The notes beneath the pieces were generated by a model. That model was not told the origin of the DNA. It did no database searches and saw nothing but the letters and a program-made list of their open reading frames with translations. Shown in pieces: positions 2,370-32,817 of a DNA stretch of 45,396 bases. A program made the translations under genes and the position numbers. Each line of letters starts with the position of its first letter. The stretch's first letter is position 1. The DNA is taken from assembly GCA_017883285.1 (NCBI GenBank), contig JADGNV010000162.1, positions 1 through 45,396 of the forward strand, read 5' to 3'. The stretch is from Candidatus Aminicenantota bacterium (GTDB taxonomy: Bacteria; Acidobacteriota; Aminicenantia; Aminicenantales; UBA4085).

Positions 2370-2813
2370 ATGACGCGACTCGGGATCATTATCTGCGCTC
2401 GGTATCAGAGCTGTGGCGGAGGCAAATGTTTTCGGGCCTTGAGGGAGCGGGCCGGCGCCTTCGCCCGCTATCCGAAAGAGGACCCGGTCGAGATCGTCGG
2501 CTTCTCGTATTGCGGGGGCTGTCCCGGAGGGAACATCGAATCCGTTCCCGAGGAAATGAAGAAGAACGGCGCCCAAGTCATCCATCTGGCGACCGGCCTA
2601 ATCGTCGGATATCCGCCCTGTCCCCGCATCAGAGAATTCAAGACATTCATCGAAACGCGCTACGGACTTCCGGTCGTCGTCGGGACCCACCCCATCCCGC
2701 TCAAATACATGTCCGTCCACGAGAAGCTTCCTTTCTGGAAGGACGCCCATATGGAAGACCTGGCGGCCGAGCTTTTTGCCGAGGACCGAGCCGTCATGGA
2801 AGCTTATAATTGA
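2370..2813 (+). CDS. CGGC-domain protein (putative metal or redox binding)
   Basis: A small 147-residue cytoplasmic protein with the defining C48-GG-C51 motif in FSYCGGCPGGN, and further conserved cysteines at C9, C15, C20 (CARYQSCGGGKC) and C84 (YPPCP). This pattern belongs to the CGGC family, which is proposed to bind metal but has no established reaction. A longer frame opens at 2319. I chose the ATG at 2370 because it has a strong ribosome site (GAAGGAGG) 9 nt upstream and begins at the conserved MTRLGIIICAR. It diverges from dsrC across a Fur-type palindrome, which suggests metal- or redox-linked control. No operon partner follows; the 99 nt to the next gene hold nothing recognisable. 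Confidence 0.85.
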   Translation: MTRLGIIICARYQSCGGGKCFRALRERAGAFARYPKEDPVEIVGFSYCGGCPGGNIESVPEEMKKNGAQVIHLATGLIVGYPPCPRIREFKTFIETRYGLPVVVGTHPIPLKYMSVHEKLPFWKDAHMEDLAAELFAEDRAVMEAYN

Positions 2814-2912
2814 TGCGGAGCGGCGTTACCGCTTTTCTTCTTTATCGAGATTCTGAAGGGGACATAGAGGGGGCAAAATCCGACGGGCGAGGGGAGGAGG
2901 GGAATTTCATTT

Positions 2913-3455
2913 TTATTTTTCCAGGATATAAAGAACCAAGTGTTCCAGCGGAATCGTCTTTATCTGAGAAAAGCCGGAGGAATTCCCCAGGCGGAGAACT
3001 TCGTCGGATTCCAATCGATCTTTTAGCGGAGGGCCAAAATTCTGTTCCGCATAGGACCATTCCAGCACGGCTGTCCTCACCGCACAAACACGGCGAGCTT
3101 CCTGAAGGGTCCGAAGTGGGCGTCCTGCTTCATGGAGGACAAGACCTAAAAAACATAAGTCAAAGGAATCATCGCCGAAAGGAAGGGCTTCCGAATCGGC
3201 CATCTGAAAATGGGCCTTCGGAACGAATCTTCGCGCGGATTCGAGCATCGGCTCTTGAAAGTCGATTCCGGTCACCTTCAAACCCAGGCGGACGAAGACT
3301 TCGGCGAAAACGCCGCTGCCCGTTCCAATGTCGAGGACCCGATTTATTTGATGTCCTTGAAGGCTTAAGGATACGGCCCGTTCGGTTTCCAATAAGGCCA
3401 GGCGCCGGGGATCACGCAGACGCTCGATGTCGCGAAATATTTTATCCTTACTCAT
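2913..3455 (-). CDS. Class I SAM-dependent methyltransferase (Methyltransf_11 type)
   Basis: A 180-residue protein with the standard SAM-binding order: motif I VLDIGTGSGVFAE (about residues 40-52), the acidic strand-2 end GIDFQEPMLESAR (about 63-75), motif II MADSEALPFGDDSFDLCF, and LGLVLHEAGRPLRTLQEARRV after it. This is the UbiE-like fold; the substrate cannot be read from the sequence. Its ATG overlaps the stop of the H+-ATPase gene by 4 nt (ATGA), so the two are translationally coupled and transcribed together. The coding region looks less GC-rich than its neighbours, a possible sign of later arrival. Alternatives within the superfamily (arsenite, menaquinone or small-metabolite methylation) cannot be separated. 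Confidence 0.88.
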   Translation of the reverse strand: MSKDKIFRDIERLRDPRRLALLETERAVSLSLQGHQINRVLDIGTGSGVFAEVFVRLGLKVTGIDFQEPMLESARRFVPKAHFQMADSEALPFGDDSFDLCFLGLVLHEAGRPLRTLQEARRVCAVRTAVLEWSYAEQNFGPPLKDRLESDEVLRLGNSSGFSQIKTIPLEHLVLYILEK

Positions 3456-5908
3456 GATGTGGTGTCAGATGTCTTGAGAACGAGCCGTTTGATCATCGCG
3501 ACCTTGAGGGTATCGTTCAGGCCAAGGCAGGCGATCATGGAATAGGCGAATATCGCAAACGTCTGTCCCCACGGTAAGGGCATGAGACCCGGGAGACCCA
3601 GGCGCGTCAGGATGGTGCCTGCGAGCACGTCCAGCGCGAGAGCGATCACGAGGGTTTGACTGGGCCTCGTCGTCCAGAACCGCCGGCGCTCTCTCGCGGA
3701 TACGATGGAGAACGCGGCAAAATAAAGCAAGGTCAAGAAGCTGAAGGTATAGAGGGCATTGTCGTTGAACGCTAAATCGAAGCGTGACCAGCTGATAAAC
3801 AAAAGGACGAGGGCCTCCATGACCATCGCCACGCCCAGTACCACGGACACCGTCAGGAAGCCCCCGATGTTCCAGGTCTCCGGCTTCCGGGACGGTCGAA
3901 CGTGGTCGGTGGCCAGGGCGATTTTGGCGAAGTCCGTCAGGAAGACAAGCAGCAGCATGGCAAAAGCGGAGACGACGAACTTCCCCGTGACGAGAAAGGC
4001 GATGGCCACGAAGGCGGCCTTCAGGATCGTCCGGCTGACTTTGTTGATGATCCAGGTCAAAACACGCTGGTAAATGGTCCGCCCCTGCTCGACCAAGGCG
4101 ACGATGTTCGTGAGCCCGGCTTCGGTCAGGACGACACTCGCGGCCCCTTTGGCCACGTCGGTTGCGGTGTTGACGGCGATGCCCACTTCGGCCTGGCGCA
4201 GGGCGGGCGCATCATTGACGCCGTCACCCGTCATGCCGGTAACGTGTCCCGCGGCTTGCAGGCGCTGCACCACGATGTATTTGTCCTCCGGGTACACCTC
4301 GGCGAACCCGTCAGCGTCCGCCAACAGGTCGACCACCTCGTGACCGGCCTGAGGGTCGGCAGCCTTCAAATCCGCCACGCGACGAATGTTGGCCAACCCG
4401 ACCGCTTGAGCGATCTCGCGCGCAACCGGAAGCGCGTCTCCCGTGAGCATCTTCACCCCGACTCCAAGATCGCGGAGAGCGGCGACGAGCTTTTTGGCCT
4501 CCGGCCGAGGCGGATCGTACAGCGTCACCAAGCCGACTAATTCGGGGACGTCCGTCTCTGGTCCGCGCGCCACGGCCAGCACCCGGTATCCCTTGAGTGC
4601 GGCCTCGCCGACACGAGCCTCGAGCGCTTCGATCGCCGGGGGCTGGAGACCGCAGGCCTGCGCCACGGCCCGCACGGCTCCTTTCATGACCCGCAGACGC
4701 TTTCCGTTCTGTTCAACCACGGCTTCCGTCCGCCGGCTTTGCGGATTGAACGGCTTGAAGAAGATGTTCGTGACCGCGGGGCCAGCGTCGAAAAGGCGAC
4801 GCTCTCGCGCCGCGGCCAGAAACGCCAAGTCGATCGGATCCTGGTTGGCCTCTTGTGACGCAAGCCCTCCCGCGAATAGCACGTCGGATTCCGTCCAGCC
4901 ATCGAGCGGGATCACGCCCATAATCGCCAGTTGGTTCATCGTAATCGTGCCCGTCTTGTCCACGCAGAGCACGTCCATCGTGGCGGCATCCTCGGCCGCG
5001 CTGAGGCGTGTAACCAGCACGCCTCGCTTCGCCAACTCCTTCGCGCCGACGGCCATGCTGACCGTGAACATCACCGGGAGGGCCACCGGCACCGCGCTCA
5101 TCAGCAGGACAAGCAGGAGCGGGATCATCTCGATAAGCGACGCCCCGCGGATCAGGGACATCACGACCACGATCCCCAGCAGGGCGCCGACGATGACGAA
5201 GAGCCACCGGACGAGCTGGGCCACCACCGCTTCGATATGGAGCTTGGGGCGCGCGAGCTGGACGAGCTCCGTGGTCCGGCCAAAGTAGGTCTGCGCCCCC
5301 GTCAGCATCACCACACCGTTGCCTTCCCCTTGACGGACGACGGACCCCGACGAGAGCACGTCGCCGGGCGCCTTGTCGACATCGGTCGATTCGCCGGTCA
5401 GGGCGGACTGGTCAATGCTCAAGGCTCCGGTCAAGAGTTTCAGGTCCGCCGGGATGATGTCGCCCGGACGGAGGCGGACGATATCGCCGGGGACCAGTTC
5501 CCGGGCGGGAATGATCCGCCAACTTGCCTCGCGCAACACGCGCGCGCTGACCTGCAGCCGTCGCCGCAGATTCTCGACGACGCCGGCGGCCCGGTGCTCC
5601 TGGGCGAAGCTTAGCACGGCATTGACGACCAGCAGTCCGCTCACCACGGCAAGATCGGAGTATTTCCGGAGCACCACCGACAGAATCATTATTAGCTCAA
5701 GCATCCAGGCCGATAAGCCCCAGAATTTTCCGAGGAACCGGAGGAACGGGCGCGATTTTTGTTCGGCCACTTCGTTGGGGCCGTGCACCTTCAGGCGGGC
5801 GTCAGCCTCATCGCGCGCAAGTCCCGTCTCGGGATCTACGTGGAGCGCCGCGAGAGTGTCGGCAACCGTCGCGGAGGCGATGTCGGGGCCGTTTGCGGTT
5901 GACGTCAT
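3452..5908 (-). CDS. Plasma-membrane proton-efflux P-type ATPase (P3A)
   Basis: An 818-residue ATP-driven cation pump with all P-type signatures: cation ATPase N-domain at the start, TGES in the actuator domain (about residue 170), the phosphorylated aspartate in DKTGT (about 316), and GDGVND in the hinge (about 560-565). The spacing, LTGD, and the C-terminal helix with FLTDFAKIALATDHVRPS match plasma-membrane H+-ATPases of bacteria, archaea, fungi and plants. The aspartate in FLTD falls where the proton-binding aspartate of that group lies. There is no heavy-metal N-terminal domain and no long autoinhibitory tail. The ATG at 5908 is preferred over the TTG just upstream. That ATG overlaps the stop of a 14-codon frame with a strong ribosome site. 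A methyltransferase gene overlaps the end. Role: membrane energisation or pH control (inferred). Confidence 0.92.
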   Translation of the reverse strand: MTSTANGPDIASATVADTLAALHVDPETGLARDEADARLKVHGPNEVAEQKSRPFLRFLGKFWGLSAWMLELIMILSVVLRKYSDLAVVSGLLVVNAVLSFAQEHRAAGVVENLRRRLQVSARVLREASWRIIPARELVPGDIVRLRPGDIIPADLKLLTGALSIDQSALTGESTDVDKAPGDVLSSGSVVRQGEGNGVVMLTGAQTYFGRTTELVQLARPKLHIEAVVAQLVRWLFVIVGALLGIVVVMSLIRGASLIEMIPLLLVLLMSAVPVALPVMFTVSMAVGAKELAKRGVLVTRLSAAEDAATMDVLCVDKTGTITMNQLAIMGVIPLDGWTESDVLFAGGLASQEANQDPIDLAFLAAARERRLFDAGPAVTNIFFKPFNPQSRRTEAVVEQNGKRLRVMKGAVRAVAQACGLQPPAIEALEARVGEAALKGYRVLAVARGPETDVPELVGLVTLYDPPRPEAKKLVAALRDLGVGVKMLTGDALPVAREIAQAVGLANIRRVADLKAADPQAGHEVVDLLADADGFAEVYPEDKYIVVQRLQAAGHVTGMTGDGVNDAPALRQAEVGIAVNTATDVAKGAASVVLTEAGLTNIVALVEQGRTIYQRVLTWIINKVSRTILKAAFVAIAFLVTGKFVVSAFAMLLLVFLTDFAKIALATDHVRPSRKPETWNIGGFLTVSVVLGVAMVMEALVLLFISWSRFDLAFNDNALYTFSFLTLLYFAAFSIVSARERRRFWTTRPSQTLVIALALDVLAGTILTRLGLPGLMPLPWGQTFAIFAYSMIACLGLNDTLKVAMIKRLVLKTSDTTS

Positions 5909-10550: not shown

Positions 10551-13493
10551 ATGGCGTATCCGAAATCCTGGGCCCGGACGGCCCTTCTCCTCGTTTTGTT
10601 CTGGACCGCGGCCGCGGCGGCCCATCCCGTGGTTCCTCCGGCGAAATTGAGCTTCGAGATCCGGCCGACGTTCTTCTTCATCGAGGAGAACGGCGCGCTC
10701 AAGCAGAGGCTGGACATCCTGCTCGACAACCCCGGCGAGGCGACGACCGGCCAGCTCCAGATCGCGTTCCCCGGTAAGCCTCTCGCGGTTCCCCTCGATT
10801 CGATTCCCGCCGGAAAATCCGTCGTTCAGATTTTTGTGCCCGAAATCACCAGCGCGGCCAAGTTCGGTTTCGTGCTGAAAGCGGGCGAGACGACGGTCCG
10901 GCGCGACGTCGCGCTCGCGCCCGAGCGGAAGTGGACGCTCTACCTCATGCCCCATTCCCATACCGACATCGGCTATACGGAGCTCCAGACGCGCGTCCTG
11001 AAAAACCACCTCGAATACCTCGATTCGGTCATCGACTTCTGCCGGGCGACCGACGCGTATCCCGACGAGGCCCGCTTCCGCTGGAATATCGAGGCCTCGA
11101 TGATCTTCCAGAATTACCTCCGCTCTCGTCCGGCCGACAAGGTCCAGGAGCTCCTGGACCTGCTCAAGTCGGGCCGGGTCGAGCTTTCGGCCAACTATCT
11201 CAACATGTCCGACGGCTTCTCCCACGAGGAGCTCATCCGGGCATCGGCTTACGCCAAAGTGGTCTCCCGGGCGAACGGCTTCAACGTCCAAGCGGCCATG
11301 AACAACGACGTGACCGGCTTCAGCTGGGCGCTGCCCCAGATCTTCAGCCAGATGGGCGTGAAGTATTTCACGACCGGGATCAACGAGGACCGGTCGCGGG
11401 CGCCCCTGCGCCGCCCGAACCCGTTCTATTGGCAGTCCGTGGACGGGGCCAAGATCCTCCTTTGGAACGGCGAACACTATCTGTTCTCGAACTACGACCT
11501 CCTCCTCCACGAGGGCTATGACAAGAGCTTCCCCAAGGTCACGGGCTACCTCGCCGGGCTCGAGAAGCGCGGCGACTACCCCTATGACCTGATCGGGTTC
11601 CACATCAGCGGCTACGTCACCGACAATTGTCCGCCCAAGAAGGAGCTCTCGGACCGCGTCCGGGAGTGGAATTCGCATTGGGCCTATCCGAAGCTGAGGC
11701 TGGCGACAATGAGCGAGTTCTTCGGCGCCCTCGAGAAGAAATACGCCAAGGCGATCCCGACGTACAAGCTCGGCTGGCCCGACTACTGGACGGACGGTGT
11801 CGGGTCAACCGCGTTCGAGACCGGCCTGAACCGCCTGGCCCACGGCGACATCCTCACGGCCGAAAAGCTGGCCGTGGCGGCCAAGCTCGCCGACAAGACG
11901 TTCGTCTATCCGACGGCCGAGATCCGCGAGGCCTACGAGAACACGACCCTGTACGACGAGCATACCTGGGGGGCCTGGAATTCTATCAGCGATCCCGACT
12001 CCGAATTCGCCCGGAGCCAATGGGCCGTCAAGTCGGGGTTCGCTTACGGCGCGAGAGAGATCGCCAAAACCGTTCTCGCCCGGAGCCAACAGGCCCTCCT
12101 GCGAGCCATCACCTCCCCCGAAGCGCGCGCCGTCGCGGTCTTCAACCCGCTGTCCTGGGAGCGGACGGACGTCGTCCGGATCGCGCTCCCGGCCGAACTC
12201 CAGGCCAAGGAAGCCAAGTTCAAGTTGTTCGACAAGCGGTCGGGATTCGAGATCGGCTATCAGCGGCCGGACAAATCCACCCTGATGTTCCTCGCGGCGG
12301 GCGTGCCCGCCTTCGGATACGCAGTCTATACGATCGTCCCGGAGATGGCGCCCATGGACGTGCCCGCGATGCCGAAGGCGGCGGGCAACGTCCTCGAGAA
12401 CCGGTACTACCGCGTCACGGCGGACCCAGTCACGGGCGGCCTCTCGAGCGTCGTCGACAAGGAGACCGGCCGGGAGCTCGTGGACGCCAAGGCGCGGGCG
12501 AGGCTGAACCAATACATCTACGAAAATCCCGTCGGCGGCCGCGACGCCGTGAACAACATGGCCAAGCCCGCGGAATTCGTCCGCGTCAGCCCCGCCGCGG
12601 CCACGGCCGGCCCGGGACTGTCGGGGCCGGTCGCCTCGAGCCTCGTGATCAAGTCCACGGCCAAGCCCTGTCCCGACATCCAGCAGGAGATCATCCTCTA
12701 TGACGGCCTGAAGCGGATCGACATCGTCAATCGCCTGAAGAAGGACGAGACGCGCGAGGCCGAGGGGCTCTATTTCGCCTTCCCCTTCGGCGTGGAGGCC
12801 GGGAAGCTCCGCTTCGAGATCGCCGACGGGACGATGGCCCCGGAAACGGAGCAGCTGCCCGGGACGACGCGCGACTGGCATTCCATCCAGCACTGGGTCG
12901 AGATCGCCGGTCCCAAGCAGACCGTCGTCTGGTCGCCGATCGAGGCGCCGCTCGTCGAGTTCGGCGACATCAACACCGGGAAATGGCTAAAAAAGCTGCC
13001 GATGACGAACACCGCCCTCTATTCCTACGCGATGAACAACTATTGGCACACGAACTTCAAGGCTGGCCAGGGCGGGCCATTCGTCTTCAGGTACGCGATC
13101 ACGTCCCGGCCGGGCGGCGAGGACCTGGTCGCCTCCACCCGCTTCGGGTGGGAAGTCCATACGCCCCTCGTCGCGGCCTGGCTGCCGGCGAAGAACGCCG
13201 GACCGCTCCCCGCGGCCGGGGCGAGCCTGTTCAGCCTGGACAAGCCGAACGTCATCATCCAGGCGGTGAAGACGGCCGAGGACGGGAACGGGATCGTCCT
13301 CCGGCTCCGGGAGATCGCCGGGATCGAGACGGAGGTGAAGGTCACAAGCCTGCTCTTCAAATCTGAGACCCTGACGTTTTCTGTGGCCGACGTCGCGGAG
13401 GGGCCGGGCAACGCCCGGACCGTGGTCCCGACGTCGATCTACGTGCCGCTCATGCCCTTCGCCATCCAGACGGTGATCATCAGGGATTACTGA
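10551..13493 (+). CDS. Secreted glycoside hydrolase family 38 (alpha-mannosidase type)
   Basis: A 980-residue protein with a signal peptide (ARTALLLVLFWTAAAAAHP), an N-terminal beta domain, and the GH38 catalytic domain beginning with PHSHTDIGYT, where H135, H137 and D139 supply zinc ligands. The catalytic nucleophile is probably D253 in NNDVTGFSWALP. The middle helical and C-terminal beta-sandwich parts (YYRVTADPVTGGLSSVVDKETGREL, about residue 620 onward) follow the family order. GH38 enzymes remove alpha-mannosyl residues from glycans; linkage is not readable. The ATG at 10551 has a good ribosome site (TAGGAGGAAG). The gene diverges from the acylase operon across about 196 nt, in which I see no clear promoter. 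With the GH116 gene and the peptidases it fits glycoprotein scavenging. Confidence 0.93.
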   Translation: MAYPKSWARTALLLVLFWTAAAAAHPVVPPAKLSFEIRPTFFFIEENGALKQRLDILLDNPGEATTGQLQIAFPGKPLAVPLDSIPAGKSVVQIFVPEITSAAKFGFVLKAGETTVRRDVALAPERKWTLYLMPHSHTDIGYTELQTRVLKNHLEYLDSVIDFCRATDAYPDEARFRWNIEASMIFQNYLRSRPADKVQELLDLLKSGRVELSANYLNMSDGFSHEELIRASAYAKVVSRANGFNVQAAMNNDVTGFSWALPQIFSQMGVKYFTTGINEDRSRAPLRRPNPFYWQSVDGAKILLWNGEHYLFSNYDLLLHEGYDKSFPKVTGYLAGLEKRGDYPYDLIGFHISGYVTDNCPPKKELSDRVREWNSHWAYPKLRLATMSEFFGALEKKYAKAIPTYKLGWPDYWTDGVGSTAFETGLNRLAHGDILTAEKLAVAAKLADKTFVYPTAEIREAYENTTLYDEHTWGAWNSISDPDSEFARSQWAVKSGFAYGAREIAKTVLARSQQALLRAITSPEARAVAVFNPLSWERTDVVRIALPAELQAKEAKFKLFDKRSGFEIGYQRPDKSTLMFLAAGVPAFGYAVYTIVPEMAPMDVPAMPKAAGNVLENRYYRVTADPVTGGLSSVVDKETGRELVDAKARARLNQYIYENPVGGRDAVNNMAKPAEFVRVSPAAATAGPGLSGPVASSLVIKSTAKPCPDIQQEIILYDGLKRIDIVNRLKKDETREAEGLYFAFPFGVEAGKLRFEIADGTMAPETEQLPGTTRDWHSIQHWVEIAGPKQTVVWSPIEAPLVEFGDINTGKWLKKLPMTNTALYSYAMNNYWHTNFKAGQGGPFVFRYAITSRPGGEDLVASTRFGWEVHTPLVAAWLPAKNAGPLPAAGASLFSLDKPNVIIQAVKTAEDGNGIVLRLREIAGIETEVKVTSLLFKSETLTFSVADVAEGPGNARTVVPTSIYVPLMPFAIQTVIIRDY

Positions 13494-13604: not shown

Positions 13605-14069
13605 TTACTGGAACGATTCGAGAAAGCTCCGGGCAGGCAGAATTTCGATTCCCCGGTATTTCTCCAGCGAGAGCAGGTGTTTGTCTCCGGAAACGATGTG
13701 GCGGGCATGGCCGTCGTCGGCCACGAAGAGGAATTTGTCATCAGCGGGGTCCTCGCGGATGACGGGGGGATGCGCGCCTACAGTGACCGTTTCCACATAG
13801 GGCAGGACATTTACGGCAATGAGTTCCCTGATCTCTTCTTGGGTCAACCCGAATTTCGGGTAGGCAAGGACCCGAAAGTATTCCACAAGGACTTCTCTTG
13901 AAACCAATAGAACGATCCGGCCCTCCTGCCATAGTGTCACCAGTTTGTTAGGCGGGCCATCAAACAGCAAGGCGGAGACGAGGACGTTCGTGTCGAGAAC
14001 GACCCTCGGTTTGGCGGGCTCGACGCGATTTCCCGGGCTTGCGGAACCGGTTACTTTTTTCTTGCCCAA
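13605..14069 (-). CDS. PIN-domain toxin (putative ribonuclease, PIN_3 family)
   Basis: A 154-residue PIN protein, the usual toxin half of AbrB/PIN-type toxin-antitoxin pairs. The acidic Mg-binding residues are visible in VVLDTNVLVSALLF (first Asp, about residue 26), REVLVEYFRVL (Glu), REDPADDKFLFVADDG and HIVSGDKHLLSLEKY. Such proteins cleave RNA and are blocked by the cognate antitoxin. The only possible start in front of the first motif is the TTG at 14069, inside the last codons of the antitoxin gene, so translation is probably coupled. The N-terminal 20 residues before the fold are extra. The target RNA is unknown. Confidence 0.87.
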   Translation of the reverse strand: MGKKKVTGSASPGNRVEPAKPRVVLDTNVLVSALLFDGPPNKLVTLWQEGRIVLLVSREVLVEYFRVLAYPKFGLTQEEIRELIAVNVLPYVETVTVGAHPPVIREDPADDKFLFVADDGHARHIVSGDKHLLSLEKYRGIEILPARSFLESFQ

Positions 14070-14287
14070 TCGACGGCGTCCTGGATGTCCTGCTCGGTCA
14101 ATCCCAAGGCCGCGACCTTTTTCCGGCTTCGCTCAAGGACGGTATTGTTCAGGGACGTGATCTTCATGGGTTCGAGGACTATTTTCCCCTCGCGAATATC
14201 CGCTTCGAAATATTCCACGCCATCGAACTTTTCCATCACTTTTTTCGGAAGAGTGATCTGATTTTTATACGTTCTTTTGCAAAGCAT
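14051..14287 (-). CDS. AbrB/SpoVT-type antitoxin
   Basis: A 78-residue protein beginning MLCKRTYKNQITLPKKVMEKF, the swapped-hairpin AbrB DNA-binding motif, followed by YFEADIREGKIVLEPM. Its C-terminal helix (VLERSRKKVAALGLTEQDIQDAVDWARKK) is suited to wrap the PIN toxin encoded next to it. An ATG at 14305 is in frame, but the ATG at 14287 has the ribosome site (GGGAGG) and the conserved start. The gene overlaps the toxin gene by 19 nt. Upstream are a sigma-70 promoter and palindromes that could be its own operator. Confidence 0.87.
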   Translation of the reverse strand: MLCKRTYKNQITLPKKVMEKFDGVEYFEADIREGKIVLEPMKITSLNNTVLERSRKKVAALGLTEQDIQDAVDWARKK

Positions 14288-14305
14288 CTCGACCTCCCAA
14301 CTCAT

Positions 14306-14382: not shown

Positions 14383-14433
14383 CAAAAAAAAGGCGGCGAG
14401 CCCCGGATTTTCGAAAATCCGGCGCCCGCCGCC
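14383..14433 (-). terminator. Intrinsic terminator after the DUF4097 gene
   Basis: Read on the minus strand, a long GC stem (GGCGGCG and CGCCGCC outside, the perfect inner palindrome CCGGATTTTCGAAAATCCGG) is followed by a run of eight T. It lies 18 nt beyond the stop of the truncated DUF4097 gene and ends that transcript. Confidence 0.85.
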
Positions 14434-14450: not shown

Positions 14451-15086
14451 TTACTTCTTCTTTCGGATGTAGATGTTGCCGTTGTAAGTCTGGAGTTTGA
14501 ACTCGGGGCCGCCGCCGTTGATCGACGCGCTGACCGCCCGGTCCATGCTGACCCGGAACTTGCCTTTGTCGGCCTTGGTGCTTTGTTCGCTCTTCACCGG
14601 CTGCTGTTTCAGGGCCATGTCGAAATCGCTGTACACCTCGCCCATGCCGGATTTGAGGCTGAACGTCGCCTTGGTGTCGGCCGGGAGGGTGACGTCGACG
14701 TCGCCGTTGAAGGCCAAGAAAGACATGGGCTTGTCGGGCGCCACTTTGGACAGCGTCGCCTCGACGTCGCCGTTCGTCGAGTTGGCCACGACCGTGCCTG
14801 AGACGTTTTTCAGGACGATGTCGCCCATCGTCCCATTGATTTCGATCTCGCCCGTGACGTTCTCCACCGAGATCCCCTCGTCCTCGAGGTTCGTCCCCTG
14901 GAGTTTCAACGACGTGGCGAACGGGACCTTAATGGTGATGTCGACCGACCGCTTCCAGAATTCGACCCGGACCGTGACCAGGTTGTCGTTTTCCTCGACG
15001 GTCAGGCCGGTGTTTTCGATGGGGATGCGCTTCATCCCGGCCGCCTTGTCCTTCTGGTCTTTTTCTTTGTCCTTGTCCTTGGACAT
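14451..15086 (-). CDS. DUF4097-like beta-repeat protein, N-terminus lost by deletion
   Basis: The frame encodes the right-handed beta-repeat domain of DUF4097 proteins: repeats such as VENVTGEIEINGTMGDIVLKNVSGTVVANSTNGDVEATL and the closing FKLQTYNGNIYIRKKK. The close intact relative at 31879-32817 ends LRLKTFSGSIRIKKK and has a signal peptide; this copy has none. The open frame continues upstream to 15215 only as antisense-like sequence from a sigma-factor gene read in another frame. The first plausible start in DUF4097 sequence is the ATG at 15086 (MSKDKDKEKDQKDK), preceded by VLALAPG, possibly the remains of a signal peptide. The protein would therefore stay in the cytoplasm, if made. The function of the family is unknown; it is commonly linked to ECF sigma / anti-sigma pairs. 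Confidence 0.7.
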   Translation of the reverse strand: MSKDKDKEKDQKDKAAGMKRIPIENTGLTVEENDNLVTVRVEFWKRSVDITIKVPFATSLKLQGTNLEDEGISVENVTGEIEINGTMGDIVLKNVSGTVVANSTNGDVEATLSKVAPDKPMSFLAFNGDVDVTLPADTKATFSLKSGMGEVYSDFDMALKQQPVKSEQSTKADKGKFRVSMDRAVSASINGGGPEFKLQTYNGNIYIRKKK

Positions 15087-15360
15087 GCCCGGGGCCAGGG
15101 CGAGAACGGGGGCCGCGGTCGACGTGGGCGTTCCGGGCGATCGTATAGAGCCAGACCGTGAACCGGTCCGCCCCCTGGTAGGTCGCCCGGTGCTTGAGGA
15201 TCCGGGTGAAGACATCTTGGACCAGGTCTTCGCTTGCCGCCCGATTTCCCGTCATCCGGAGGAAGAAATTGAACAGGAGGACGTGGTGGCGCTCGAAGAG
15301 GATCGCGAGTTTTTCGATCCGGCCGTCCCGGACGTCCTGCATGATCCGGTCGTCGGTCAC
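14929..15360 (-). pseudogene. Truncated ECF sigma factor (region 2 only) fused to DUF4097 sequence
   Basis: From the GTG at 15360 (ribosome site GGGAGG) the first 81 residues are an ECF sigma factor region 2: LFERHHVLLFNFFLRMTGNRAASEDLVQDVFTRILKHRATY and FTVWLYTIARNAHVD. At about 15118 the similarity ends abruptly. The frame then runs out of phase through the DUF4097 coding sequence until 14929, giving junk rich in R, G and H. Region 4, the anti-sigma gene and the start of the DUF4097 gene are all absent, although the intact sigma / anti-sigma / DUF4097 order exists at 30488-32817. The simplest reading is one deletion joining sigma to DUF4097. An assembly join is the alternative. Without region 4 the product cannot read a -35 element. 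Confidence 0.8.
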
Positions 15361-15425: not shown

Positions 15426-15454
15426 TAAAGACCGAAGCCGGGGGAAAAGGTTAC
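15426..15454 (-). promoter_or_regulatory. ECF-type promoter of the truncated sigma gene
   Basis: Minus strand: AACCTTTTC at 15452-15444, then 11 nt, then GTCTTTA at 15432-15426. The same AACCTTTTC with a similar spacer and CATCTATA stands upstream of the intact sigma gene at 30440-30467. The -35 AAC core and TCT-containing -10 fit ECF promoters and suggest autoregulation. Confidence 0.55.
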
Positions 15455-15590
15455 ATCTATTGTAGCGGTAAATGGGTCAAACTAGAAATGTCAAAGGACT
15501 TGCGCTAAGCTACCCACATGAACGCCTCACGCCGTAAAGCATGGCTTCTCCCGGACAAATCAATGAAGCCGGTGCTGCCTTATTAGGTTT

Positions 15591-16282: not shown

Positions 16283-16750
16283 TTACGCCGAGTTCTTCGT
16301 GGCGGCTTGTCCGGCCCGAGGTTCCTTGGCTTTCTCAATCAGACGGTTCAGGATTTTTTGAATATCGGCCGAATCTTTCGCGCAGATCTCGAACAATTCT
16401 TCCGGACCGATCTCATGATAGAAATGAACCAGACGGTTCCGATAGCCGGCCATGAGTCGCAGGAGGTCGGATTCCTTCTTGGTCAGCGCTTTTTTCTCGA
16501 ACAACATCCGGGCGATATCCTTGTATTCCGCCGCCGCCGCGCCGAATTTCCTGGCTAGGATATGGCGGCCGACGTCGAAGAGGGCTTCCAAGGCCCGGCG
16601 CACGTAGGACTCCGCGGCGGCCTGTTTGTGTTTATCGGCCAAGAACTCTTCCCGGTCGTCCAGTCCGAGATCCCGGAGGTCGGCGAGCATTTTGCGGATC
16701 CAGGCGGTTTTTTCGACGATGACCGATCCGTTCACCTTCGCGGGCGTCAT
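16283..16750 (-). CDS. hepT: HepT-like HEPN toxin
   Basis: A 155-residue all-helical HEPN protein of the DUF86/HepT family. Its catalytic Rx4HxY motif is intact: R104, H109 and Y111 in GYRNRLVHFY. HepT proteins are RNases or RNase-like toxins that are neutralised when the partner MntA nucleotidyltransferase adds AMP to the tyrosine of this motif. The ATG at 16750 overlaps the stop of mntA by 4 nt, the typical gene order (antitoxin first). The C-terminal 20 residues are poorly ordered looking. A stand-alone DUF86 function is possible but the pairing makes the toxin-antitoxin reading the most likely. Confidence 0.87.
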   Translation of the reverse strand: MTPAKVNGSVIVEKTAWIRKMLADLRDLGLDDREEFLADKHKQAAAESYVRRALEALFDVGRHILARKFGAAAAEYKDIARMLFEKKALTKKESDLLRLMAGYRNRLVHFYHEIGPEELFEICAKDSADIQKILNRLIEKAKEPRAGQAATKNSA

Positions 16751-17166
16751 TTCGAGGCTCCCATGATCATGCGCGCACGCTCGCGCTCAAAAGGCAGGAG
16801 GTCGGCGGCGCGTCGCATATAGTATAGCTGGCAATCCGCCTCGCTTTTTTCATTCGCGGCATAGAGAAGCTCGCCTGATACGATCTCGCCGCCGAGGCTC
16901 GCGGGAGCTTCGGGAAGTGAAACCACGTCGACCCGGAATATATCGAAGAGATCTTCAAAAAAGATAGCGATCCGGACTTTTTCTTTGACCGAAAGCGGCC
17001 GAAGGGGCTTGATCCCAAGATCGAGGTCTGAGCGAGGATGCCTCGAATGCGGCGTTTTTCCCTGGATTCTGGCTTGGAGCTCTTTCGCCCGACTACCGAA
17101 GGCGTAGATGGTCTCCAGGCCATTGCGTCGGGCAAAGGCCGAGATGCGTCGCTTATAATCGATCAC
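16747..17166 (-). CDS. mntA: MntA-like nucleotidyltransferase antitoxin
   Basis: A 139-residue minimal nucleotidyltransferase with the GS motif at G24-S25 (YAFGSRAKE), the double aspartate D47 and D49 (RSDLDLGI), and the third acidic residue D80 in FRVDVVSL. The loop between GS and DxD is about ten residues longer than usual (QARIQGKTPHSRHPR). Members paired with HepT add AMP to the toxin and silence it. The start is GTG at 17166 behind a strong ribosome site (GGAGGAAGG). A promoter with TATAAT lies immediately upstream, leaving a leader of about a dozen nt. It is translationally coupled to hepT. Confidence 0.85.
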   Translation of the reverse strand: MIDYKRRISAFARRNGLETIYAFGSRAKELQARIQGKTPHSRHPRSDLDLGIKPLRPLSVKEKVRIAIFFEDLFDIFRVDVVSLPEAPASLGGEIVSGELLYAANEKSEADCQLYYMRRAADLLPFERERARMIMGASK

Positions 17167-30487: not shown

Positions 30488-31138
30488 ATGGCCTATCCCG
30501 AGATCGCGTTGGCAAACAAGATTCAATTGAGGGATAATGCCTTCGTGAACCGCCCCAAGGACGAACGAAACGGGGTCTTCTTCACCGCATCGCCCGAAAT
30601 CCCCCTGGCGGAGCTGATCGCCCGGGGCCGTGTCGGCGACGCCGTCGCCCTGGAAGCCCTCTACCGCCGCTATAAAAGCGGGCTTTTCAACCTCGCTTAC
30701 CGATACACCTACGACCGGGCCACGGCCGAAGATCTCCTCCAGGAGATCTTCCTCAAGATCTTCACCCACCTCGACGACGTCCAGAACATCGAGACGTTCA
30801 CCGGCTGGGTCTTCCGCATCGCCCTGAATACCTGCTACAGCCATCTGAGGGGGAGGCGGGTCGAAATCGAAAAAACCGTCCCCATGGCCGCCGTCGAGGG
30901 CACCCGGCACGAAGCCCGGGTGGACGCCGAGGAAAACGACATCCGCAAGCCCCTGGATGAGGCGATCGCCGGCCTGCCCGCGCGGTTGCGCGAGATCTTC
31001 CTCCTCCACGACGTGCAGGGCTTCAAACACGAGGAGATCGCCCGGATGCTCGGCCTGTCGGTCGGGACGTCCAAGTCCCAGCTCTTCAAGGCCCGTCTCA
31101 AGATCCGGGAGGTCCTCAAGGCGAGAAGGGCGTGCTAA
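30488..31138 (+). CDS. ECF-type RNA polymerase sigma factor
   Basis: A 216-residue ECF sigma factor with region 2 (ALYRRYKSGLFNLAYRYTYDRATAEDLLQEIFLKIFTHL, then FTGWVFRIALNTCYSHLRG, about residues 55-120) and region 4 (ALDEAIAGLP-like LPARLREIFLLHDVQGFKHEEIARMLGLSVGTSKSQLFKARLKIRE, about 163-208). A 40-residue N-terminal extension precedes region 2. It is followed after 6 nt by a zf-HC2 anti-sigma gene and then a DUF4097 gene. The upstream AACCTTTTC motif suggests autoregulation. A truncated relative lies at 14929-15360. The ribosome site is weak. The inducing signal is unknown, but the envelope location of the partners suggests cell-envelope or redox stress. Confidence 0.93.
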   Translation: MAYPEIALANKIQLRDNAFVNRPKDERNGVFFTASPEIPLAELIARGRVGDAVALEALYRRYKSGLFNLAYRYTYDRATAEDLLQEIFLKIFTHLDDVQNIETFTGWVFRIALNTCYSHLRGRRVEIEKTVPMAAVEGTRHEARVDAEENDIRKPLDEAIAGLPARLREIFLLHDVQGFKHEEIARMLGLSVGTSKSQLFKARLKIREVLKARRAC

Positions 31139-31144
31139 GGAGTC

Positions 31145-31852
31145 ATGGCCATGAAATGCTCGGACGCGCATAAGCTCATGGGAGATTATCTGGAAGGGGT
31201 CCTCGCCCCCGAAGAGAGCGGCAAGCTCCGGGACCATCTGGAATCCTGTAAGGACTGCAAGGAGCTGCTCGAGGACTTCGACGACATCGCCCAGCAGGCC
31301 CGCGAGCTGCCCCGGCTCGAGCCGTCGGACGCGGCCTGGCCGGCGATCCTGTGGCGGGTCCGCGAGGCCCGGACCGGGGCGGCCGCCCCTCTCGCGCCCC
31401 GCAAGAAATGGTTCGAGACGATCTTCGTCCCGGGACGGCTGATCTATGCGGGCGCGACCGCGCTCCTTCTCCTGGCCGTGGTCGGCGGCCTCGTCCTCAC
31501 TCGTCGCCCCGCGAACGGGAACGCGGGCCTCTCCGAGCCGGACCGCTTCACCCTGGCCAAGGTCGAGGAGGCGGAAAAATACTACAAGCTCGCCATCCAG
31601 GCCCTGAGCGAGGCGGTCGGCTCGCCCAAGAGCGGACTGGATCCCCAGGTGGCCGCCGTCTTCGAGCAGAACCTCCGGGAGATCGACGCGGCTATCCTGG
31701 CCTGCCAGACCGCGGTGACGCGGGCCCCCTCCGACCTTGCGGCCCGGGTCTATCTCCTGGGGGTCTACAAGAACAAGGTCGAATTCCTCGACAACGTCAT
31801 CGAGGTCAAGAAGAATTCGCCGTCCGCGAAGACGAACGGCGCGACGATATGA
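31145..31852 (+). CDS. zf-HC2 transmembrane anti-sigma factor
   Basis: A 235-residue protein with an N-terminal zinc-binding anti-sigma domain (C5, H31, C35 and C38 in CSDAHKLMGDYLEG and LRDHLESCKDCKELL), a linker, one transmembrane helix (LIYAGATALLLLAVVGGLVLT, about residues 100-120), and an extracytoplasmic helical domain of about 110 residues (VEEAEKYYKLAIQALSEAVGS, AAVFEQNLREIDAAILAC). The cytoplasmic part would hold the sigma factor encoded 6 nt upstream and release it on a signal sensed outside. The ATG at 31145 or 31151 may be used; GGAG lies just before both. The DUF4097 gene follows after 26 nt. Confidence 0.9.
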   Translation: MAMKCSDAHKLMGDYLEGVLAPEESGKLRDHLESCKDCKELLEDFDDIAQQARELPRLEPSDAAWPAILWRVREARTGAAAPLAPRKKWFETIFVPGRLIYAGATALLLLAVVGGLVLTRRPANGNAGLSEPDRFTLAKVEEAEKYYKLAIQALSEAVGSPKSGLDPQVAAVFEQNLREIDAAILACQTAVTRAPSDLAARVYLLGVYKNKVEFLDNVIEVKKNSPSAKTNGATI

Positions 31853-31878
31853 TCGGACAGACGAAAAGGAGGATCACC

Positions 31879-32817
31879 ATGAAAAAGCAAAATCTCGCCG
31901 CGGTGATGGGCATCCTGGCTCTCATCGCCATCTTCGCGGGCGCTTGGGCTGCGGAAAAATATGTGGAGCCGTTCTCCAAGACCGAAAGCTTGGCCAAGGA
32001 CGGCCGGGTCACTATCGGCAACTTATCGGGCACGATCGACGTCCGCGGTTGGGACCAGGCCCAGGTGAAGATCGAGGCCGAGAAGGTTTCGAACGCCTCC
32101 TCGCTCGACAAGGCCAAAGCGAACGCCGCCCTCGTGACGATCGAGGTTACGAAGGAAGGCAACAACCTCAAGGTCGAGACCAAGTATCCTGAGGGCCGCA
32201 ACCGCGATTTGAACGTCTCGGTGAACTATAAAATCTGGGTCCCCGATAAAGCCGCCGTCAAGCTGAGCAATAAGAGCGGCACGGTGAACGCCGAGGCCGT
32301 GGGTGGGGCGTTCGAGGCGGACGTCACAAGCGGAAACGCGACCGTCGCCAAGATGGCCGGTCCCGTGGACTTCCGCACAATGAGCGGCCGGATCACGGTC
32401 CGCGACGTGGCGAACGACATCGACCTCAAGACCATCTCGGGGAACATCGAGGCCTCCCAGATCAAGGGCTCGGTGGCCGCCGAGACCACGAGCGGCCGGA
32501 TCGAGCTCCGCGACGTGTCCGGGGCGAAAACCGTCCGGGCCAAGGTCCTGAGCGGCAGTATCATCTACGAGGGCCAGCTCGCGCACGGGGCGAGGATCAG
32601 CCTCGAGGCGCTGAGCGGCGGCCTCGAGCTCACTCTTCCGGCGAACGCCGCGTTCGAGCTCAACGCCGAGACCTTCAGCGGCCACGTCGACTCCGAGTTC
32701 GCGATCACGATGTCGGGCAAGATCTCGCCCAAGGAGCTGCACGGCGTCGTGAACAACGGCGGGGCGACCCTCCGGCTGAAGACCTTCAGCGGCAGCATCC
32801 GCATCAAGAAGAAATAA
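31879..32817 (+). CDS. Exported DUF4097 beta-repeat protein
   Basis: A 312-residue protein with a signal peptide (KKQNLAAVMGILALIAIFAGAWAAE) and then short beta repeats typical of DUF4097 (GRVTIGNLSGTIDVRGWDQAQVKIEAEKV, LSNKSGTVNAEAVGGAF, FRTMSGRITVRDVANDIDLKTISGNIEA, LRLKTFSGSIRIKKK). The fold is a right-handed helix-like beta stack; no enzyme motif is visible. It is the third gene of the ECF operon, which suggests the product is an effector or sensor in the envelope response. A truncated paralogue is at 14451-15086. The ribosome site AAAGGAGG sits 6-13 nt upstream of the ATG. A long overlapping frame from 31351 is a shadow. Confidence 0.9.
   Translation: MKKQNLAAVMGILALIAIFAGAWAAEKYVEPFSKTESLAKDGRVTIGNLSGTIDVRGWDQAQVKIEAEKVSNASSLDKAKANAALVTIEVTKEGNNLKVETKYPEGRNRDLNVSVNYKIWVPDKAAVKLSNKSGTVNAEAVGGAFEADVTSGNATVAKMAGPVDFRTMSGRITVRDVANDIDLKTISGNIEASQIKGSVAAETTSGRIELRDVSGAKTVRAKVLSGSIIYEGQLAHGARISLEALSGGLELTLPANAAFELNAETFSGHVDSEFAITMSGKISPKELHGVVNNGGATLRLKTFSGSIRIKKK

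Follow-up and report, generated by a model that had tools for sequence, protein, structure and literature searches.

A recent internal deletion has probably inactivated an autoregulated ECF sigma factor operon in a Candidatus Aminicenantota bacterium

Introduction

Deletion-type pseudogenes of bacteria consist of two fragments brought together by one internal deletion, with the flanks and regulatory ends kept and an intact ortholog present in a sister genome. The locus described here has all of these features. It lies in a window of 45,396 nucleotides (the whole stretch of DNA that was analyzed), which is contig C91 of a draft metagenome-assembled genome. The gene order from which it appears to derive consists of an ECF sigma factor, an anti-sigma factor with zf-HC2 and HEAT domains, and two DUF4097 proteins (DUF4097a and DUF4097b). 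This four-gene order is also found beyond the Aminicenantales (loci L080-L143; for example L096, L133 and L141), recurring in Acidobacteriota, KSB1, Bacteroidetes (Pontibacter), Ignavibacteria and Woeseiaceae. A literature search found no paper on the four-gene operon or on its loss.

The relatives of the genome are Candidatus Aminicenantes metagenome-assembled genomes, and we compared the window with 94 genomes from the order. An intact orthologous locus is present in a genome of the same genus, fen_413 (PLMN01000023.1; here G001). Our preferred reading, to which we give a probability of roughly 85%, is that a recent internal deletion of ~2.3 kb inactivated an autoregulated ECF sigma operon and left a pseudogene remnant.

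Results

A sigma factor gene joined out of frame to a DUF4097 gene

The remnant, which we refer to as the scar, is on the minus strand:

15118..15360, minus strand: sigma fragment with a GTG start, codons 1-81 of ~185 (Pfam Sigma70_r2 and alignment with G001)
14451..15128, minus strand: C-terminal part of DUF4097b, beginning in the Ala/Pro linker and ending with the stop codon at 14451-14453 (Pfam DUF4097 and alignment with G001)
15117..15128, minus strand: junction zone, CCCACGTCGACC (both parental sequences, from relatives, aligned)
14929..15360, minus strand: chimeric ORF of 143 codons, 81 from sigma plus an out-of-frame tail, with its stop at 14929

The initial annotation had described 81 codons of an ECF sigma gene running out of frame into a DUF4097 gene, and this is what we found, with the sigma part extending from 15360 to 15118 and the rest continuing to 14451. 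The scar ORF contains sigma region 2 (PF04542, Sigma70_r2; E 1.7e-15; residues 21-81). Region 4 of sigma70 proteins recognizes the -35 element of promoters, and the Pfam search found no match to it in the window ORF. The sigma fragment is 83% identical in amino acid sequence to the G001 sigma over 81 aa, and homology stops at window position 15117. Beyond the junction, the sigma frame continues as a basic tail to 14929, which we consider meaningless.

The second fragment contains part of a DUF4097 (Toastrack) domain (PF13349; E 7.6e-11; profile positions 94-233 of 247) and is 85% identical to the G001 DUF4097b over 209 aa. Its reading frame differs from that of sigma and is open from the linker near 15128; DNA homology to DUF4097b is unambiguous from 15082. 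The signal peptide and the first repeats are missing, the frame opening in the linker, and there was no clear ribosome-binding site before the starts in the DUF4097 frame at 15215, 15086 or 15035.

The 12 nt at 15128-15117, CCCACGTCGACC, read both as sigma (..AHVD) and as the DUF4097b linker (PTST..). The junction is likely a microhomology of up to ~12 nt, and the exact breakpoint is one that we infer. A deletion mediated by long repeats was also considered and is unsupported: in the DNA that survives around the junction, we found no long direct repeat.

The intact operon in a sister genome

The G001 operon has four genes:

G001 215-772: sigma
G001 762-1571: anti-sigma, zf-HC2 and HEAT repeats
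G001 1599-2495: DUF4097a
G001 2506-3501: DUF4097b

The G001 sigma keeps region 4 (PF08281; E 1e-15), and the N-terminus of its DUF4097b, MNKKIRTLGMALLLAAAMFAAAQ, was called a signal peptide by eye. The DNA of the window and of G001 is 83% identical from the side upstream of the promoter through sigma codon 81, and again 83% identical from DUF4097b into the 3' flank. The segment absent from the window corresponds to G001 459-2793, or 2,335 bp. Downstream there is a gene that served as an anchor for synteny:

10551..13493, plus strand: alpha-mannosidase-like gene, convergent with the scar

This gene and its counterpart at the same position in G001 are 82% identical, and a convergent mannosidase gene also follows DUF4097b in G008, G011, G010 and G003 and on a second contig of the window genome, C103. 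Among the orthologous loci in the order that are contained in one contig, 3 of 29 span less than 1 kb, the window scar measuring 0.907 kb. The other ~26 span 2.1-3.4 kb, the shorter of these intact loci having one DUF4097 gene and the longer ones two.

The comparison with sister genomes proposed in the initial annotation thus turned up the full operon in G001 and not the scar arrangement. An ancestral gap-free arrangement was ruled out by G001 and the ~26 intact loci in the order. The deletion reading stands because of the intact G001 ortholog, the identity of both flanks, the shared position of the mannosidase gene and the intact loci of the order. On the same comparison, the earlier proposal that one deletion removed sigma region 4, the anti-sigma gene and the DUF4097 signal peptide holds, but it understated the losses, since the whole of DUF4097a, a gene that it had missed, and the first ~96 codons of DUF4097b are gone as well.

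There are two further genes between the scar and the mannosidase gene:

13605-14069, minus strand: PIN-domain toxin (PIN_3; E 3.6e-21)
14051-14305, minus strand: AbrB-like antitoxin, 84 aa, labeled by eye, with no Pfam match

At the corresponding site no relative was found to carry this pair (13605..14305): an ABC permease gene occupies it in G001, and other relatives have neither. The pair is likely a lineage-specific insertion. Separately, minus-strand ORFs of 139 and 155 aa at 16283-17166 (nucleotidyltransferase-like and HEPN-like) resemble, by eye, an MNT/HEPN toxin-antitoxin system.

A diverged copy and the possibility of an assembly chimera

The window genome has another contig, C103, that carries a diverged copy of the operon (G000:C103, L014; 1-3938), with sigma cut at the contig start and its own convergent mannosidase gene. 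Elsewhere in the genome there is no close copy of the anti-sigma gene or DUF4097a. The C103 copy bears on whether the true operon might be intact, with 2.3 kb skipped by the assembler or by a chimeric read. The genome is a draft metagenome assembly (227 contigs, 98.2% complete, 6.2% contamination), and a diverged intact copy is present on C103, a short contig that starts inside the sigma gene. However, the C103 copy is only 63% identical in DUF4097b and has a mannosidase gene of its own. In addition, the junction carries no repeat longer than the likely microhomology of at most ~12 nt, this lineage's anti-sigma is absent from the rest of a 98%-complete genome, and similar scars lie in the interior of contigs in two other assemblies, G003 and G047 (see below). 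We consider a chimera very unlikely.

We also rejected C103 as the missing allele, given its identity in DUF4097b, its own mannosidase gene and its roughly equal distance from the window, G001 and G008. It probably comes from another genus of the family as a contaminant, or is an old paralog.

An operon-specific promoter that has probably lost its sigma factor

The initial annotation was correct that the promoter (15455-15429) and terminator (14392-14433) of the operon remain:

15429..15455, minus strand: ECF-type promoter TGTAACCTTTTCCCCCGGCTTCGGTCT, with -35 TGTAACC, 16 nt and -10 GTCT
14392..14433, minus strand: intrinsic terminator of the old operon, with 21-nt arms followed by a T run

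The terminator hairpin folds at -49.1 kcal/mol (z -5.5). The pattern TGTAACC-N16-GTCT has a single match in the window, allowing up to one mismatch, and a single match in the genome. Searching the 94 genomes of the order with the strict pattern gave 25 matches, almost every one of them immediately upstream of this sigma gene, and none with a reversed-pattern control. The G001 operon carries the same promoter as the scar. One strict match, G041:C1:3514143-3514169, is clearly away from the sigma gene and is a possible second target.

The scar promoter is most likely the lost sigma's own, and we infer that this sigma read it. Judging from its conserved, operon-specific promoter, the operon looks to have been autoregulated by its ECF sigma before the deletion. 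Given how rarely the promoter occurs outside this locus, the intact operon would seem to form a closed autoregulatory loop that mainly drives itself. The suggestion of a still-likely transcript is weak: the promoter is of the ECF type and seems dedicated to the deleted sigma, which leaves continued transcription uncertain, and the region that we scanned upstream of the scar contained no sigma-70-like promoter. The orphan promoter is probably near-silent now.

The paralogous operon and other deletions in the order

The window contains a second set of related genes:

30488..32817, plus strand: intact paralogous sigma / zf-HC2 anti-sigma / DUF4097 operon

The intact set that the initial annotation had placed 15 kb away does exist, but it is a diverged paralog (38% identity to the scar sigma over the region 2 segment) and not a former copy of, or template for, the scar. 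Orthologs of the paralogous operon were found in 68 of the 94 genomes. Its span was 2.15-2.37 kb in 58 of 58 loci, and internal deletions were found in none of the 58.

There were several other deletions or truncations in orthologs of the scar operon. In G003:C147 (L160, 366-666), the promoter and 14 sigma codons lead, out of frame, into the end of DUF4097b, and the two BLAST matches share 6 nt at this join, a likely microhomology. In G047:C26 (L165, 3718-4440), ~130 sigma codons are joined in frame to the DUF4097b tail. In G063:C4 (L162, 2995-3240), the sigma gene breaks off at about codon 57, and the DNA beyond it is unrelated. In G011:C92 (L055, 1535-1770), DUF4097a is reduced to its signal peptide and last part, in frame, and the other genes of the operon are intact. 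Three loci were left unscored: G010 and G005, where contigs end in or near the operon, and G068, which has a DUF4097b frame from about residue 149 and no sigma nearby. We considered a selected fusion protein and rejected it, since the window and G003 both join the two genes out of frame.

The frequency of spans below 1 kb in this operon (3/29) compared to internal deletions in the paralogous operon (0/58) gave a Fisher p value of 0.034, with the discovery case counted and phylogeny left out of account; leaving the window out gives a p of ~0.1 by hand calculation. Across 80 loci sampled more widely, from many phyla, sigma was complete wherever the contig allowed.

These deletions could have recurred under selection, which would add to the deletion reading. 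Loss of the anti-sigma alone would free the sigma factor, so viable losses would have to break sigma in the same event, giving joins that run from the start of sigma to the last gene. In the window, G003 and G047 alike, the join runs from within sigma to within DUF4097b. Among the loci of the order that were read, none had a full sigma well inside a contig yet no detectable anti-sigma, and the paralogous operon is free of internal deletions. Against this, the cases are few and the p value depends on counting the window, sigma ORFs are complete across the wider phyla, and simple random deletions would give a similar picture. Selection is a possibility that we hold tentatively. It seems to us unlikely that the operon is, within the Aminicenantales, a recurrent deletion target whose viable losses have to break sigma and take out its anti-sigma at once, leaving a repeated scar (promoter and sigma start joined to the tail of the last gene) that is possibly polymorphic within populations.

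Age of the deletion and fate of the remnant

In the comparison of the window with G001, the sigma fragment has a dN/dS of 0.13 and the DUF4097b fragment one of 0.22, and neither contains an internal stop. Relative-rate counts, which are small, gave no clear excess of amino acid changes on the window branch. The low dN/dS values and lack of internal stops indicate that the loss is, on sequence grounds, recent relative to the split from G001.

The same values could mean that a product is still in use, either a regulator made of sigma region 2 or a cytosolic DUF4097b: coding sequence is intact past the join, promoter and terminator are both present, and the analogous G047 fusion is in frame. However, low dN/dS is expected anyway after a recent loss, two of the joins, those of the window and G003, are out of frame, and the DUF4097b fragment has neither a signal peptide nor a clear ribosome-binding site and has lost the sigma that likely read its promoter. 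We regard a useful retained product as highly improbable.

In the deletion reading, the ancestral operon would have encoded, in order, sigma, the zf-HC2/HEAT anti-sigma, DUF4097a and DUF4097b, under its own sigma's control. A single deletion of ~2.3 kb, probably by RecA-independent joining at a short microhomology, would have left the promoter with 81 sigma codons, followed out of frame by the 3' part of DUF4097b and the terminator. With region 2 but not region 4, the truncated sigma is not expected to switch on ECF promoters. What is left of DUF4097b lacks a signal peptide and probably also an efficient start, which would make the locus a pseudogene remnant.

Discussion

The scar is most probably a real, recent and ordinary pseudogenizing deletion, a case of routine gene loss. 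The loss has been caught early, while both ends and the promoter can still be read. Its recurrence across Aminicenantales lineages is the sole part worth following: with separate deletions here and the paralogous operon untouched, there is a natural case in which to ask whether a sigma factor and its anti-sigma must go together.

The paralogous operon in the window resembles the scar operon in its order of sigma, zf-HC2 anti-sigma and DUF4097, and differs in having one DUF4097 gene, no match to TGTAACC-N16-GTCT and a constant span. The G001 operon is closer. It is orthologous, with 83% DNA identity on both flanks, the same promoter and the same convergent mannosidase gene; in contrast to the scar, it keeps all four genes, and the site of the PIN/AbrB-like pair is taken up by an ABC permease gene. 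Compared to deletion-type bacterial pseudogenes, there is no essential difference, apart from the fact that this operon has been affected in several Aminicenantales lineages.
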